Source of the DNA: a virus
Length of the DNA stretch: 64,000 nucleotides
IMG/VR virus record: IMGVR_UViG_3300046804_004104
Coordinates: 1 to 64,000 of that record
Reading direction: 5' to 3' (one strand)
Numbering within the stretch: the first letter of the stretch is position 1; the number at the start of each line of letters is the position of its first letter. Below the pieces are notes generated by a model that saw nothing but the letters and a program-made list of their open reading frames with translations, ran no database searches and was not told the origin of the DNA. This document shows, piece after piece, positions 33,534-55,798 of this stretch. Position numbers and translations under genes: made by a program.

Positions 33534-34541
33534 ATGGCACTATTAGTTCCAAATATTGGAGAACTTGAGTCACTCAGATACTTGGTTGCACAGAACAACC
33601 ACACTGCAAGTCTTGCTGACCAGTCTCCCAGAAACCTAGTTTTAAAACTTTTCACAAGTAATACCACTCCAGCTGAGTCGGATGTACCTTCCGCTACCAG
33701 GTATTTTGAGCCATATGGAATTGGCAATACTAACGCTTATGGATATGCTCCTTATACAGGTTATCCATATTGTGTAAATAACAGAACAGATCAGACTTAT
33801 ACATCTCAGACAGGAATTCTCCTCAATGGATCTCGTTGGAGAATTAACCAAGTAGGTTCTGGAACAACAGCAACATACCCAGAACAAACTTTCACATTTA
33901 CTGGAGATGCTGGTGACATTTATGGTTATTATGTGACTAGAGCAAACAATATGCCTGTTGCTGTTCAGGGTGTTGTTCATGCAGCTACAGTTGGTATTGG
34001 AACTACTATTACCAAAGGAAATAACACAGACCCAACAATCGGTGTTATCGGTAATCAATATATTACAATCGATCCAGACATCAGTGTTGATGATTTGACT
34101 TTGGGGATGGTTGTAGGAGGAAATGCTGGTATCCAGACAGGTACGACAGTAATCGGTATTGATAGAGCTTTAAAAGTTGTTTACTTAGATAAAGCCCTTA
34201 TCGATAACATTCAGGTTGCTACTGACCCAAGTGTTGAATTCAGTTTTGGTAAAATGGTAAGATCTGGGCATCAATTGGTAGCTGGAGATGTTCTTTATAT
34301 TGCTGCAGGAGCAGGAAATACTACTCTAGTATCAAACACATATACAGTTTTTTCAGTTCCAAATGCTAATGAGTTCTATACCACGCCATCGTTGAACCCA
34401 ACTCTAAACACTGTAGCTGGTTTAAATACGGCTACTCTTTATAGTTCTGTTATGTATGCTGAGAGATTTACAAATGGTCCTTACACGATTCAAAACAACG
34501 GTGACCAAATCAAAATTACATTGAATGTTGCTCTTGACTGA
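33534..34541 (+). CDS. Abundant-type virion structural protein, 335 aa
   Basis: A 335-residue protein starting MALLVPNIGELESLRYLVAQ, with strand-rich sequence throughout (a GDAGDIYGYYVTRANNMPV segment, GQ-type turns, and a final INLNVALD-like strand written as KITLNVALD). There is no membrane span. It has its own perfect late promoter, a strong Shine-Dalgarno sequence eight bases before the ATG and a strong terminator after it. That makes a self-contained, probably highly expressed unit. Codon use is more balanced than in the giant genes nearby. I recognise it as a virion structural protein of cyanomyoviruses, but cannot say whether it belongs to the tail or head. A high-copy decoration or fibre protein is a reasonable inference. 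Confidence 0.7.
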   Translation: MALLVPNIGELESLRYLVAQNNHTASLADQSPRNLVLKLFTSNTTPAESDVPSATRYFEPYGIGNTNAYGYAPYTGYPYCVNNRTDQTYTSQTGILLNGSRWRINQVGSGTTATYPEQTFTFTGDAGDIYGYYVTRANNMPVAVQGVVHAATVGIGTTITKGNNTDPTIGVIGNQYITIDPDISVDDLTLGMVVGGNAGIQTGTTVIGIDRALKVVYLDKALIDNIQVATDPSVEFSFGKMVRSGHQLVAGDVLYIAAGAGNTTLVSNTYTVFSVPNANEFYTTPSLNPTLNTVAGLNTATLYSSVMYAERFTNGPYTIQNNGDQIKITLNVALD

Positions 34542-34575: not shown

Positions 34576-34607
34576 GGGGATTGCTTTTTTATGGCGATCC
34601 CCTTTTT
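34576..34607 (+). terminator. Strong intrinsic terminator
   Basis: GGGGATTGC (34576-34584) pairs with GCGATCCCC (34594-34602), nine pairs including one T-G, and is followed by TTTTT. This is a textbook Rho-independent terminator 35 bases after the 335-residue virion protein. It ends the baseplate block and separates it from the recognition-fibre block. Confidence 0.85.
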
Positions 34608-34647: not shown

Positions 34648-37600
34648 ATGAGTAATGTCTATGTCTACGACTCAACAGTAACAGACATTTACTCGGAAGA
34701 AGATTTTGGATCTATTTCATCTTCGCCGAGTGTTAGCGAAGATTATCAACAAATAAGTGCAGTTGCAAATAATTTTGAAGATTGGTATGCAGTATCTGTA
34801 AGTTCTTCTCAAGTACCATTTGGATCTATTGGAAATATAAGTGCCGGACTTTCAAATGAAAAAACAACTTATAGTTTTGTTTCGGCCACAACAAACATTA
34901 CACTTTCATCCACACTTATTTCCAAGGTAACATTTACTTGGGATGGAAATGGTACATTATTTGAAATAGGAAGTGGATTAGAAAGAACGATATGTTCTTA
35001 TCTCACATCTGGAACGGTACGACTTGGATATAGTGAGGCGGGCATTAGTTCAGCTAATGTAAGTAGATCATTAGATTATAACGAAAGTTCAATAGTAGTA
35101 TTTACAAGTGAAGATTATGGTGTTGTTTCTGGAATAACAACCATATCAACATACTATGGCGACCTTACCGTAAATACAGTTACTCCAGAAAGTGGAAACG
35201 AAGATTACGGAAATGTTGTAGATCGTGTAACAGGATTTAGTACACAAACTACATATCCACTCACTCGTGGAGTAGCATTAACATTTGCAAGTCAGGGTTC
35301 AACTACTTATCCAAGAATATATGGAAGTGACTTTGTAACTGGTACTAGAGATAGTGGTGTAGGCGTTTCCACTACAGTACAGTTTAAAAATTATTGCAAT
35401 GCAGTCGGATTTGGAAGTAGTGTAACAGGAAAATATAAAACAGTTGATGATTATCTAGTAGTTTACTCTGCAAATTCTACTGGTAATTCATTTGTAACTT
35501 ATTTGCAATCATTACCTGATGGATCTCATCATTATGTAAATTTTGATACTGGTGTTGCATCTATATGGTCTTCTAAGTATGTTTTAAAGAATTCTTCAGT
35601 ATTAACTTCATTTACTCAATTAACTGAACAATATACATACGCAACATTTAATATTGGGGGGCAATTAGGATTAGTATTCAAATTACCTGATTATGTTGGA
35701 GAGTCTACAAACGGTGATTTAGGAAATATTAATCTTAATACTACACCATATAAGTTCCAAGAAATTACTTTAAGACCACCAAATCTTAGATTCTTCCCAG
35801 GACTTACAGGTCTTGGAACCGTCTATGTTGTAAATGGATTTAGTCCACAAGAGTCTTATCCATGGTTACCTGAGCCTGGAGTTGGTAGATCTTGGAGTTT
35901 CTCTAGAACATCATACCTTGGAAATGGAACACTATTTGGTCTATCTGGAGCTGTAGAATCATTTGGTGCAAATCCATTAGAAAATACTCAACTATTCACT
36001 GTATCTGGAATTTCTTCTACTGCAGAAATCCAAGTATATGGAATCAATCCAGGAAATCATTTATATCCTCGTCCACTGGATGTAAGTAGTGGAATCATCA
36101 CCGTAAGAAACACTGCACTAGTTCATCCATTTGTAGATTATACACCTCATTATGGTATTGAGAAAAATATTGGTGTTGGAACCACTGGTGTTAAACTTAG
36201 TGGAACCGCAACTTATAAGGATACTGATTCTTATGTTGGAGTTGGTACTTTCAGTTCTCTTAGTGGTGCTGCAGAGTCCATTACTAAAGTATATGATCTT
36301 TATGATTCTATAATTGTTGATCTTCAGGATTGGGGATCAATCACTCAGTTACCCCCATATAATGGATTTGATGATTGGGGTCTACTCAGCATTCTTTATG
36401 ATGGTACTGAAGTTTGGGGTCCAATCACTGGTTATGGATCTAGCACTACTATTCCATTTGGATTGTTTACAGTTAGTGGAAGAGCCATACTATCCTTTGA
36501 TAAGGGTCCATATACAGCTGATAGACCAATCTATACTCTTAGTGGAATTGCTTCTACAAGAGAAATTGCTGTTTATGGGTACTATGGTGATGATAGGAAC
36601 CCAGGAACAAGTGGTGTTATTACATTATCAGCAAATCTTGTACATCCAAATATTGATTATACACCACATTATGGTATTGAAGAAAATATTGGTATTGGAA
36701 CTACAGGAATTCAGATTACTGGAATTTCAACTGCCGTAGAAAGATTAATAGTCAATCCACCAGAGAATACCCAACTCTTTAGTTTCTCTGGAAGTTACAG
36801 TGATCTTCAGTTTAGTGCTAACACACCAGAAAATACTCAACTCTTTACTATTAGTGGATCTTTAGTAGAGAAGGATGTTGATTCTTATGTAGGAGTAGGC
36901 ACCTTAACAATCTCTGGAACAGCTCTAGAGGCTTATTCGGCACAAACTCCGGAAAATACTCAACTCTTTACTATTTCTGGACAAACCCTGGAGTCATATT
37001 CAGCTCAGACTCCGGAAAATACTCAACTCTTTACTATCTCTGGAGAACTTGTACATCCAAATATTGATTTCACACCTCATTATGGTATTGAAAAGAATAT
37101 TGGTATTGGAACTACCGGTATTCAGATTAGAATTGGAGTTGGATACGAGCCAGATAGTGAAGGCAATCCTCGTGATGCAAGAACATATTCAAATAGATAT
37201 CCAATTAATGATAAGGTTCCTGGAACAGGAATTGGTACTATTACCTTTGATCAGATAAGAGATCTTGCGAAGTATAGTCCATTAACTCCATATAAGGGAA
37301 GTGGTCTATTTGATATAGTTACAGGATTTAGTCCACAGGAGTCTTATCCATGGTTACCAGGTCCTGGAGTTGGTAGATCTTGGAGCTTTACACAAGCAAC
37401 TCATATTGGATCTGGGAATATTTCAATTGCAGGAATTGCTTCCACAAGAGAAATTGCTGTTTATGGTTATTATGGAGATGATCGTGATCCAGGAACATCT
37501 GGTCAGATTACTATTTCGCAACAGACTGAACCAAGTATTGAAAAAGAAACTGATTCTTATGTAGGACTCGGAACTTATACTTTAAGTGGAACTTCTATAA

Positions 37601-51705: not shown

Positions 51706-51717
51706 CATAAATAAATA
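51706..51717 (+). promoter_or_regulatory. Two overlapping late promoters (CATAAATA, AATAAATA)
   Basis: CATAAATA at 51706-51713 and AATAAATA at 51710-51717 overlap by four bases, just after the stop of the third paralogue and 24 bases before the next ATG. Either phase gives a seven-of-eight match to the T4 late motif. Confidence 0.6.
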
Positions 51718-52853: not shown

Positions 52854-53495
52854 ATGAACATAGCTGAAATTTTTCCAACTCCTATATTTGTAGATAATTA
52901 CACCGAAAAAGAAACCATAAAAAATTTGATTTTAAAGGAAATAAAAAAACAAAAACCAGAACCTCATTTGTGTTCTCCACAACTACTTCATTATGGAAAC
53001 ACATCAGATGGTTCTATTTTTAGAAAAAAAGAGTTCAAATCATTTAAACAATGGTGTGAAAAATCCTGCGAAAAATTTATTACTGAAGTACTTGGATATA
53101 AATTGGAAGATGGAGTATTTGTAACGGATAGTTGGATCAATGTTTGTAATAAGGATGGATTCCAACAACCGCATTTTCACACCAATTCTTTTATTTCTGG
53201 AACATATTATGTAAATTTTGATAAGGATCTAGGGCATTCCCCATTGACATTTCAATCACCCAGTTCTGCAAATTACATATCAAAGTCTTCAATAAGTTTA
53301 GAAAAAATTGTTCCAACTCCATATACAACAGATTCTAATTGTTATCCACAGAACGGTGATTTAGTCCTTTGGCAATCACACTTACTTCATGGACATTTTG
53401 GTAATGAAGCTGATGATAGAATATCGGTTTCTATGAATTTTATGCCAAAAGTAATCAGTACTGGTCAGTATGGATTTAGAGTTTCTCCTTACTAA
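52854..53495 (+). CDS. 2OG-Fe(II) oxygenase, 2OG-FeII_Oxy_5-like, 213 aa
   Basis: It begins IAEIFPTPIFVDN, the usual opening of this family. The core has SWINVCNKDGFQQPHFHTN and SGTYYVNF (H107-x-H109-x-N111), then PQNGDLVLWQSHLLHGHFGN with H179 and DDRISVSMNFMPK with R189 and S191. This family typically has HxH/N in place of HxD and an R-x-S motif that binds 2-oxoglutarate. Similar proteins are common in marine T4-like phages, with unknown substrate. It starts 17 bases after the previous oxygenase. Its stop is followed directly by the gp13 promoter and hairpin. Confidence 0.85.
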   Translation: MNIAEIFPTPIFVDNYTEKETIKNLILKEIKKQKPEPHLCSPQLLHYGNTSDGSIFRKKEFKSFKQWCEKSCEKFITEVLGYKLEDGVFVTDSWINVCNKDGFQQPHFHTNSFISGTYYVNFDKDLGHSPLTFQSPSSANYISKSSISLEKIVPTPYTTDSNCYPQNGDLVLWQSHLLHGHFGNEADDRISVSMNFMPKVISTGQYGFRVSPY

Positions 53496-53497
53496 AT

Positions 53498-53505
53498 TAT
53501 AAATA
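53498..53505 (+). promoter_or_regulatory. 13: Perfect late promoter TATAAATA for gp13
   Basis: An exact TATAAATA overlaps the 5' edge of a long hairpin (53501-53528). With the usual T4 spacing, transcription would start near 53511-53512, at the end of the hairpin's 5' arm, leaving the 3' arm with its AGGGG unpaired in late transcripts. Confidence 0.75.
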
Positions 53506-53532
53506 CCTCTAGGAAACTAGGGGTATTTTTTT
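53501..53532 (+). terminator. Intrinsic terminator and ribosome-site mask abutting the gp13 ATG
   Basis: AATACCTCTAG (53502-53512) pairs fully, with one T-G, with CTAGGGGTATT (53517-53527) around a GAAA tetraloop. The stem extends one more A-T pair and is followed by T residues to 53532, so it is a strong Rho-independent terminator for the oxygenase genes. Its 3' arm contains AGGGG (53519-53523), the only Shine-Dalgarno candidate for gp13, nine bases before the ATG at 53533. Confidence 0.8.
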
Positions 53533-54366
53533 ATGGCGCAACCATCTAGTAGAGCGGAGTTGAAAGATTACTGCCTCAAACAACTAGGAAAGCCAGTTTT
53601 AGAAATAAATGTAGATGACGATCAAATTGATAACTTAATTGATGATGCAATTCAATATTATCATGAGCGTCATTTTGATGGAATTGATCGTGTATTTTTA
53701 AAACATAAACTCACTCCTGCAACTAAAACAACCTTAGCTCAACCAGGTCCAGTAGGTTCTGCAACTACATCTTCCCCAGAAGTTGTCGGAGCCGGATTAA
53801 CTTCTCTTACTTATGTTGAAGGGGTTAATTATCTCCCACTTCCAGATAGTATTATTGGCGTAAATAATATCCTCAAAATTAATTCCAGTACTATATCAGA
53901 CGGTCTTTTCAATATTAAATATCAGTTGTTTTTAAATGATGTTTATTATTATGGTGCATTAGATCTCTTGAATTATGCAATGGTCAAAAGATATCTTGAA
54001 GATTTGGATTTTCTCCTAAATCCTCATGCACAAATCAGATTTAATAAGAAGAATCATAAACTATATCTTGATATTGATTGGTCTCAGGTTGGGGAAAATG
54101 AATATGTAATTATCGATTGTTATAGGATCGTGGATCCTTCAGATGCACCAAAACTCTACAACGATTGGTGGTTGAAGAAATACCTCACAGCTTTAATTAA
54201 AAAACAGTGGGGACAGAATATGATTAAGTTTAATGGTGTACTTCTTCCAGGTGGAGTTCAACTGAATGGGAGACAGATTTATGATGATGGTGTTGCCGAA
54301 GTAGAAAAGTTAGAACAACAACTTAAGGATGAGTACGAATTACCACCACTGGATCTCATAGGTTGA
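53533..54366 (+). CDS. 13: gp13 neck protein, 277 aa
   Basis: The N-terminus LKDYCLKQLGKPVLEINV followed by DDDQIDNLIDDAIQYYHERH and GIDRVFLKHKLT is characteristic of gp13 in T4-like marine phages. The middle has YQLFLNDVYYYGALDLLNYA and RYLEDLDFLLNPHAQIRFNK; the end has WWLKKYLTALIKKQWGQNMI. T4 gp13 has 309 residues. In T4, gp13 and gp14 form the neck that closes the filled head and joins it to the tail. Codon use becomes less AT-biased here and stays so through gp17. The ATG directly abuts the T-run of the terminator hairpin. gp14 begins one base after its stop. Confidence 0.92.
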   Translation: MAQPSSRAELKDYCLKQLGKPVLEINVDDDQIDNLIDDAIQYYHERHFDGIDRVFLKHKLTPATKTTLAQPGPVGSATTSSPEVVGAGLTSLTYVEGVNYLPLPDSIIGVNNILKINSSTISDGLFNIKYQLFLNDVYYYGALDLLNYAMVKRYLEDLDFLLNPHAQIRFNKKNHKLYLDIDWSQVGENEYVIIDCYRIVDPSDAPKLYNDWWLKKYLTALIKKQWGQNMIKFNGVLLPGGVQLNGRQIYDDGVAEVEKLEQQLKDEYELPPLDLIG

Positions 54367-54367
54367 T

Positions 54368-55798
54368 ATGTCACCACTTAATTCTTATTTTCTTCAAGGA
54401 TCTCCGAGTGAGCAAAGACTTATTCAAGATCTAATCAACGAACAACTTAAAATGTATGGACAGGATGTTCTATACATGCCTAGGAGGATTATTGGGGAAA
54501 ATACGGTCATTAAAGAAGTCACCGCATCAAAGTTTGATGATAGTTTTCGTATTGAAGCCTATCTAATGAACTTTGAGGGATTTAGTGGTAATGGAGATCT
54601 TCTTACAAAGTTTGGTGTCAGAAGTAATGATGAAATCAATCTTGTGATTTCAAAGGAAAGATATGACGATTTTATTTCACCTTTATTAAAATTATGGCCA
54701 GAAGATGAAAGAAAAGTTGCATATAGACCACAAGAGGGAGATTTAATTTGGTTTCCTCTAGATGAGTCACTATTTGAAATTAAGTATGTTGAAGGTAAAA
54801 AACCATTCTATCAACTCAACAATCTCTATGTTTATGAATTAAGATGTGAAAGATTTGAATATGAAGATGAGATTATTGATGTTCCTGAGGTTGATCCTAC
54901 TGGCATAGAGATCAATGAATCCATTAAAGATCTTGGAAATGTTTATACTATTCAAATGGTTGGAACAGGTGCCACTTCAGCCGTAGCAACTGTTGGATTT
55001 GCAACAACTGATCCAAATTCCAAATCAGTCCAGTATGTTGATCTTATCAATGATGGATTTGGATATTCTTTCCCACCTACAGTTTCCATATCTACTGCAC
55101 CGTCTGGTGGTCTAACAGCAACTGCGGTTGCAATCATGACTAGTAGATCTACAAATCAAAAACTTGCAATTGATAGAATCCTCATTACAAATCCTGGATT
55201 TGGATATACTGAACCTCCAACAGTTACTATTTCTGGTGGTGGAGGAAGTGGTGGAATTGCAACTGCAGTAATTAATACAAGAGTTCTAGGAGTCATTGGA
55301 ATTTCTTCTGGTGGTGTTGGATACACTACAACTCCTCAAGTTACAATCCAAAGAACCTTTATCCCAACAAGTACAGGCATTTCCTCTAATATTAGAAATG
55401 CACAAGCTGAGGCAATTCTAAATTCTAATGGAGTAGTGGTTGCAATTCGTTATTCAAATGCTGGTGCTGGATATACATTTACTCCAACAATATCCTTCAC
55501 AGATCCTACCGCAACTACATTTGGAGATTATGATTATAATGAAGTTGTTACTGGTTCTAGAACTGGTACAACTGGATATGTTAAGAGTTGGGATTATGTC
55601 AATAGAGTTCTTAAACTGTCAGTTGTTGATGGAACTTTTGCACGAGGAGAGGCTATAGTTGGTGCAGCTGCAAGTTATAAGGTTTCAAGTGTTCAAACAA
55701 ATGAATTCTTAGACCTATATGCAGAAAATCTTGAAATTGAATTAGCTGCTGATCAAATTCTTGATTTTAGTCAAAAGAACCCATTTGGTGAATACTAA
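54368..55798 (+). CDS. 14: gp14 neck protein with inserted GxGY repeats, 476 aa
   Basis: Residues 1-185 are canonical gp14: LNSYFLQGSPSEQRLIQDL, a YGQDVLYMPRRIIGENTVIK segment, SFRIEAYLMNFEGFSGNG and RPQEGDLIWFPLDESLFEIK. The C-terminus EIELAADQILDFSQKNPFGE is also typical. Between about residues 195 and 385 lie at least four repeats of the form GxGY-x-x-x-P-x-(V/I)-x-(I/F), such as NDGFGYSFPPTVSI and NPGFGYTEPPTVTI. This region explains most of the extra length over T4 gp14 (256 aa). The repeats match those in gp8 and the giant proteins. In T4, gp14 forms a neck ring with gp13. The insert may project from the neck as decoration. Confidence 0.9.
   Translation: MSPLNSYFLQGSPSEQRLIQDLINEQLKMYGQDVLYMPRRIIGENTVIKEVTASKFDDSFRIEAYLMNFEGFSGNGDLLTKFGVRSNDEINLVISKERYDDFISPLLKLWPEDERKVAYRPQEGDLIWFPLDESLFEIKYVEGKKPFYQLNNLYVYELRCERFEYEDEIIDVPEVDPTGIEINESIKDLGNVYTIQMVGTGATSAVATVGFATTDPNSKSVQYVDLINDGFGYSFPPTVSISTAPSGGLTATAVAIMTSRSTNQKLAIDRILITNPGFGYTEPPTVTISGGGGSGGIATAVINTRVLGVIGISSGGVGYTTTPQVTIQRTFIPTSTGISSNIRNAQAEAILNSNGVVVAIRYSNAGAGYTFTPTISFTDPTATTFGDYDYNEVVTGSRTGTTGYVKSWDYVNRVLKLSVVDGTFARGEAIVGAAASYKVSSVQTNEFLDLYAENLEIELAADQILDFSQKNPFGEY

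Follow-up and report, generated by a model that had tools for sequence, protein, structure and literature searches.

A putative promoter embedded in a predicted transcription terminator at the gp13 leader of a T4-like phage of the cyanophage kind

The leader of gp13 in a T4-like phage of the cyanophage kind was found to carry a late-promoter box, a terminator-like hairpin and a start codon in one compact arrangement. We consider it quite probable that this element acts as a transcription boundary that also provides a restart, that is, as a promoter plus a terminator, in which the -10 region and the first transcribed bases of a late (gp55-type) promoter would also form the 5' arm of an intrinsic terminator. 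The box, the hairpin, the T-run, the start codon, their fixed spacing, the conservation of the pairing and the recurrence of the arrangement are established at the level of sequence. The original prediction had thought the added terminator function in one compact element unusual; the element belongs, however, to a recurrent class, found ahead of many genes and with two kinds of promoter, whose constant part appears to be the promoter plus the terminator and not a mask over the ribosome site.

The element and its surroundings

The window, the whole stretch of 64,000 nucleotides that was analysed, sits in a virus record of 69,760 bases (IMGVR_UViG_3300046804_004104), in which gp13, gp14 and then further tail and packaging genes are consecutive on the + strand. 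The gp13 gene (53533-54366, +, with its ATG at 53533) encodes the neck protein or head-tail adaptor; it was assigned by PHROG 211 (head-tail adaptor Ad2, E 4.5e-47) and is annotated as a neck protein in S-SCSM2R. Immediately upstream is a gene for a 2OG-Fe(II) oxygenase (52854-53495, +; PF13759, E 7.8e-17; PHROG 81), and the second gene upstream belongs to DUF6445/PHROG 1644. Two overlapping ATAAATA late boxes, starting at 51707 and 51711 (51707-51717, +), stand before this upstream gene cluster, and the other promoter candidates upstream of gp13 were weak -10-like sites only.

When positions 53498-53535 (TATAAATACCTCTAGGAAACTAGGGGTATTTTTTTATG) were read directly, they were found to consist of a late-promoter box, a 12-bp hairpin with a GAAA loop, a T-run and the gp13 start, and all of the positions given in the original prediction were correct. 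The box (TATAAATA, 53498-53505, +), which has the sequence of a T4-type late promoter and would be expected at -13 to -6, lies 35 nt 5' of the gp13 ATG and runs into the 5' arm of the hairpin (AAATACCTCTAG, 53501-53512, +). This arm is followed by the GAAA loop (53513-53516, +), by the 3' arm (CTAGGGGTATTT, 53517-53528, +), which like the 5' arm was defined by folding and covariation, and by the T-run TTTTTTT (53526-53532, +), which ends against the start codon. A GC-bearing stem of this length, a short loop and a T-run directly after it predict an intrinsic terminator, and the hairpin, with its 12 pairs, is the strongest terminator-like site within 46-64 kb. The RNA fold of 53470-53560 has a free energy of -23.8 kcal/mol (z -2.5), to be compared with -15.2 kcal/mol for the stem alone. 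From T4 late-promoter geometry, the late start would be expected 6 nt past the box, at 53511-53512 (+), and 2 of the 12 bases of the 5' arm would then be left in the RNA. The 3' arm contains the Shine-Dalgarno candidate AGGGG (53519-53523, +), whose duplex with the anti-Shine-Dalgarno sequence (-6.6 kcal/mol) ranks 7th best among the 31 genes of the window; as had been predicted, no better candidate was found at a usable distance before gp13. The leader has a late box in the 5' arm and a Shine-Dalgarno sequence inside the stem, as in a mask of the T4 gene e type, and the presence of the T-run sets it apart from a hairpin that is a mask only.

A late box with a stem of at least 8 pairs and a T-run occurred once in the window and once in total over 60 dinucleotide shuffles, and neither a stem of at least 10 pairs nor a T-run abutting an ATG was found with a late box in these 60 shuffles. 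No Rfam family reached its gathering score for the element, the best E of 0.0006 being far under the cut-off. The window contains a second strong terminator at 34576-34602 (10 pairs, six of them G-C), located between open reading frames ending at 34541 and starting at 34648; its T-run meets no start codon, and it lacks a late box.

Conservation and turnover among gp13 leaders

Genes for gp13 were fetched from IMG/VR by protein alone, ignoring the leader. The twelve nearest relatives, whose proteins are 80-99% identical, kept the element in three loop variants; their T-run stays against the start codon, and immediately before the box their DNA is for the most part unrelated. Among the matches listed, 34 of 171 distinct gp13 leaders hold a terminator hairpin, and a late box overlaps it in 34 of 34 cases, while the other leaders have a late box without a hairpin (43), neither feature (91), or a box and a hairpin without a T-run (3). 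The element is thus not essential to gp13, being absent from 134 of the 171 leaders, and on the gp13 protein tree the trait requires at least 9 gains or losses, which indicates that it comes and goes. Of 33 loci with the element, 30 have an upstream gene in the same direction as gp13, compared with 48 of 73 leaders that lack both box and hairpin (p 0.008), which fits a need for a terminator.

Compensatory changes in both arms, which the original prediction had proposed to look for in relatives, were found in an alignment of 17 sequence variants with the box in the 5' arm. ATAAATA is invariant across these variants, 5 of the 12 stem pairs have changes on both sides, and 98.5% of the cells are paired; none of 500 shuffles reached any of five covariation measures, and when the 3' arm was slid by 1-3 columns as a control, the pairing fell to 35-61%. 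The outer AAATA/TATTT pairs are fixed and six pairs never vary, partly because the same bases form the promoter box. One close relative (L016) has two stem mismatches and a weak fold.

Two layouts were distinguished. In type A, which is that of the window itself and of 28 leaders in the tree, the box lies in the 5' arm, the 3' arm has Shine-Dalgarno-like bases, and the T-run is at, or a few bases from, the ATG. In type B, found in six leaders (L595, L610, L724, L725, L727 and L728) and in S-PM2 (66785), a terminator hairpin of 9-15 bp carries CTAAATA or ATAAATA in or at its loop, and the start codon is well past the T-run, outside the hairpin. In both types, the 5' arm would be missing from a late RNA begun 6 nt beyond the box. 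The type B stem cannot hide a start-adjacent ribosome site, and therefore the principle shared by the two types would be that of a promoter plus a terminator. As a separate matter, the annotated gp13 start of Sf-FS3 (PV340856, 107197; L206, 574) is located 27 nt upstream of the aligned conserved start, and this annotation is probably too long.

Recurrence at other genes and with a sigma-70 promoter

In named phages, a BLAST search with the 47-base element gave a real match in S-SCSM2R only, and the strict late pattern was found in one copy in S-SCSM2R (at gp13, record position 101642) and in none of 11 other isolates; hence the exact sequence does not form a repeat family. A structural search, in place of a sequence search, was then used for the wider class, which has a copy at 128660 of S-CAM9. 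Hairpins followed by a T-run were collected on both strands of T4 and of 17 cyanophage-type records, one of them a pelagiphage and several of them IMG/VR contigs. Start codons were accepted when followed by 60 open codons in this genome scan (40 in the sigma-70 scan below), a rule by which short genes are missed and some false ones admitted. Here and in the other counts, each distinct element entered once, but families recur and related sequences are not independent. A late box was present in 17 of 286 cyanophage-type terminators, and a start codon was abutted by 12 of these 17 and by 22 of the 269 others (p 5e-9). Since possession of the strict pattern had been the reason for including some of the genomes, the comparison was repeated without those copies, giving 7 of 12 and 22 of 269 (p 3e-5). 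T4 itself has 16 terminator-like hairpins, and among these there is neither overlap with a late box nor contact with a start codon.

Of 46 distinct start-abutting late elements, whose stems range from 6 to 15 bp, 35 have a loop that starts 6-8 nt past the box, and in all 12 cases of the genome set the late RNA would retain 0-4 bases of the 5' arm. The original expectation that the late start falls near the end of the 5' arm thus agrees with the computed position in all genome instances. As the position of the loop follows the expected start despite variable stems, the hairpin appears to be placed by the expected start site.

Pattern scans of IMG/VR give samples, and the figures that follow are among the matches listed. 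The late element, mostly touching the start codon, precedes gp13 and the T4-type terminase large subunit, and is also found before genes for phage lysozyme, endonuclease VII, a SegE-type GIY-YIG endonuclease, and RusA-like and unknown proteins; a generic ATAAATA...TATTTTTT-ATG pattern was also scanned. The inner stem was paired in 53 of the 66 late-pattern matches listed, compared with a shuffle mean of 3.6. In a control sample of AAATACC...GGTATTTTTT terminators, for which the box was not required, 13 of 17 with ATAAATA had a start codon in the next 5 nt, as did 13 of 97 without it (p 3e-7); when CTAAATA was counted too, the numbers were 18 of 25 and 8 of 89, respectively. On one contig (L091, - strand, at about 745 and about 2739), a ATAAATACCCCGAAAGGGGTATTTTTT element occurs twice in almost identical form, some 2 kb apart, and one of the two precedes a RusA-like gene.

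Many start-abutting terminators without a late box were found to have a host-type promoter core instead, with a -10 hexamer that ends precisely where the stem begins. For instance, TATAAT is directly followed by AAGGGGGTCAAACGACCCTCTTttttATG at 168323 of Syn9 (DQ149023), and another example is at 138888 of S-PM2 (AJ630128); further copies are at 2131, 97867 and 198899 of Sf-FS3, at 187263 of S-SM2, at 161611 of S-CAM9 and in L763-L882. This sigma-70 layout consists of an extended -10 (TGnTATAAT), a G-rich/C-rich terminator hairpin and a T-run touching the ATG, and its box lies outside the stem, unlike the late box. Of 34 start-abutting terminators, 21 have a promoter core of either kind at their 5' base, compared with 28 of 252 others (p 2.5e-10; p 1.5e-7 after exclusion of the selection copies). 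When IMG/VR was scanned with the pattern TATAAT-N0-3-GGGG...CCCYTTTTTT, at least 114 distinct sites were obtained; among the matches listed, 66 of 114 abut a start codon, 49 of them with the ATG directly at the T-run, and TGn precedes TATAAT in 57 of the 66 and in 15 of the 48 others (p 1.5e-9). At least 15 IMG/VR copies are located before a Mom-like DNA modification gene and at least 27 before a small protein (PHROG 2587). The copies in named isolates are from cyanophages. Since the 3' arm of the sigma-70 version is C-rich, it hides no Shine-Dalgarno sequence. Of the predicted combination of mask, promoter and terminator, all three parts are present in the sequence of the gp13 copy, and the mask is the part that is not constant, being absent both from the sigma-70 version and from the six gp13 leaders with the box in the loop.

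Proposed function, alternatives and known systems

We propose that polymerase coming from the oxygenase genes would make both arms, as read-through RNA of the oxygenase gene would contain the entire hairpin, which would form and stop transcription at the T-run, with termination expected at 53529-53532. An RNA begun at the embedded promoter, at 53511-53512, would start at the end of the 5' arm, so the hairpin could not form, the RNA would not be terminated, and AGGGG would be available. With such a boundary and restart, gp13 and the neck and terminase genes behind it would be governed by their own promoter, whatever lies upstream. In RNA slipping past the terminator, the ribosome site would be held in the stem, and AGGGG in the 3' arm may therefore provide a second safeguard. 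This masking is the weaker part of the proposal; it is plausible in the gp13 copy, with the chances about even. For the 5' end of the late RNA, some pairing with the first codons of gp13 is predicted, so the ribosome site of that RNA may not be wholly free.

It has been reported that late promoters lie inside leader hairpins of e, soc, 49 and I-TevI in T4 and of mobE in Aeh1, where long RNAs fold and late RNAs do not (PMC3014915, PMC2988022). The gp13 leader might be a timing device of the gene e type, in which early and middle read-through RNA is untranslated with its Shine-Dalgarno sequence hidden, late RNA is translated and termination is incidental; we regard this as possible, with somewhat less than an even chance. 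The parallel with gene e drawn in the original prediction is real, since the e leader has the same geometry, a late box in the 5' strand of a hairpin in which AAATACC pairs with GGTATT, and a masked AGGAGG (PMC3014915). Furthermore, Shine-Dalgarno-like 3' arms occur in 9 of 13 late start-abutting hairpins and in 57 of 238 ordinary terminators, and the late elements before lysozyme, endonuclease VII and GIY-YIG genes precede kinds of genes that are masked in T4. However, AAATACC/GGAGGTATT of gene e runs straight into the ATG and is a translation mask only, without a T-run, whereas the gp13 leader has seven T, the hairpins of the gp13-type class are predicted terminators, and type B gp13 leaders and several late elements lack a Shine-Dalgarno sequence in the 3' arm. 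Among start-abutting terminators overall, such 3' arms were no commoner than in others (p 0.12), which argues against masking as the general purpose. In addition, the late boxes at 51707 and 51711 stand ahead of the upstream genes, so read-through into gp13 is probably late too and there is probably little early RNA to silence. A role in early/late timing, as for gene e, is therefore doubtful.

It is unlikely that the terminator and the gp13 promoter share bases only to save space, with no effect on each other. Intergenic gaps in cyanophages are short and the AAATA of the box is a natural A-tract partner of the T-run, but the box is strongly tied to the start codon, chance sharing would not repeatedly place the loop at the expected start across stem lengths, and the sigma-70 version uses another box, outside the stem. 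A recombination joint, at which upstream cassettes are swapped and gp13 retains its leader, is less likely still; it would account for the unrelated DNA upstream of the box between near-identical gp13 genes and for the repeated gains or losses on the tree, but leaves unexplained the pairing conservation, the T-run, the distance to the start codon and the layout at many other genes. Terminator hairpins commonly stabilise or trim mRNA 3' ends, but that this is all the hairpin does, the box being no active promoter, is very improbable given that a late box accompanies all 34 of the gp13 terminator hairpins listed and is rare in ordinary terminators.

The promoter-plus-terminator reading shares a GC-bearing stem, a short loop and a T-run with intrinsic (Rho-independent) terminators, and differs from an ordinary one in that the promoter and the start site lie in the 5' arm and the start codon comes directly after the T-run, so that the downstream gene's own RNA would escape termination. 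Leader attenuators and riboswitch terminators likewise lie just before a coding sequence; in contrast to these, no alternative fold or ligand was seen for the element, and the transcription start site would decide the outcome. In vitro work on designed templates in which a terminator stands beside a promoter has shown that polymerase is able to slide after termination and to restart (PMC6978380), whereas in the element the two overlap. That work is not evidence for a hand-over here; it is conceivable that polymerase, released on top of the next promoter, could pass directly to the next unit after sigma exchange. The broader idea that promoter-in-terminator elements of both the sigma-70 and gp55 versions are a standard unit boundary in T4-superfamily cyanophages, possibly with such a hand-over, is speculative and would more probably fail than hold. 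A cyanophage late box (NATAAATA) and sigma-70-like early promoters have been reported (PMC2984593), and terminators have been predicted genome-wide by others (PMC3037559). No literature joining promoter and terminator overlap in phages was found in a search that most subscription journals lay beyond, and the class is apparently unreported. Prior notice of such elements may exist in a transcript-start study of Syn9, reportedly that of Doron et al. from 2016.

Phage genomes are packed and their genes are swapped, and how a core operon is kept independent of upstream cassettes is a general question, to which a part of 35 bases able to halt transcription from upstream and to initiate its own would be a simple answer. 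The layout predicts which RNAs should terminate, and because the class is present in the cultured cyanophages S-PM2, Syn9, S-CAM9 and Bellamy, this could be tested at once on existing infection RNA data. The element would also double as a small insulated promoter for cyanobacterial genetics. Among the genes behind it, gp14 (54368-55798) has a stretch, approximately residues 164-376, that matches virion and baseplate structural families and looks like a repeat module inserted into or fused to the head-closure protein.
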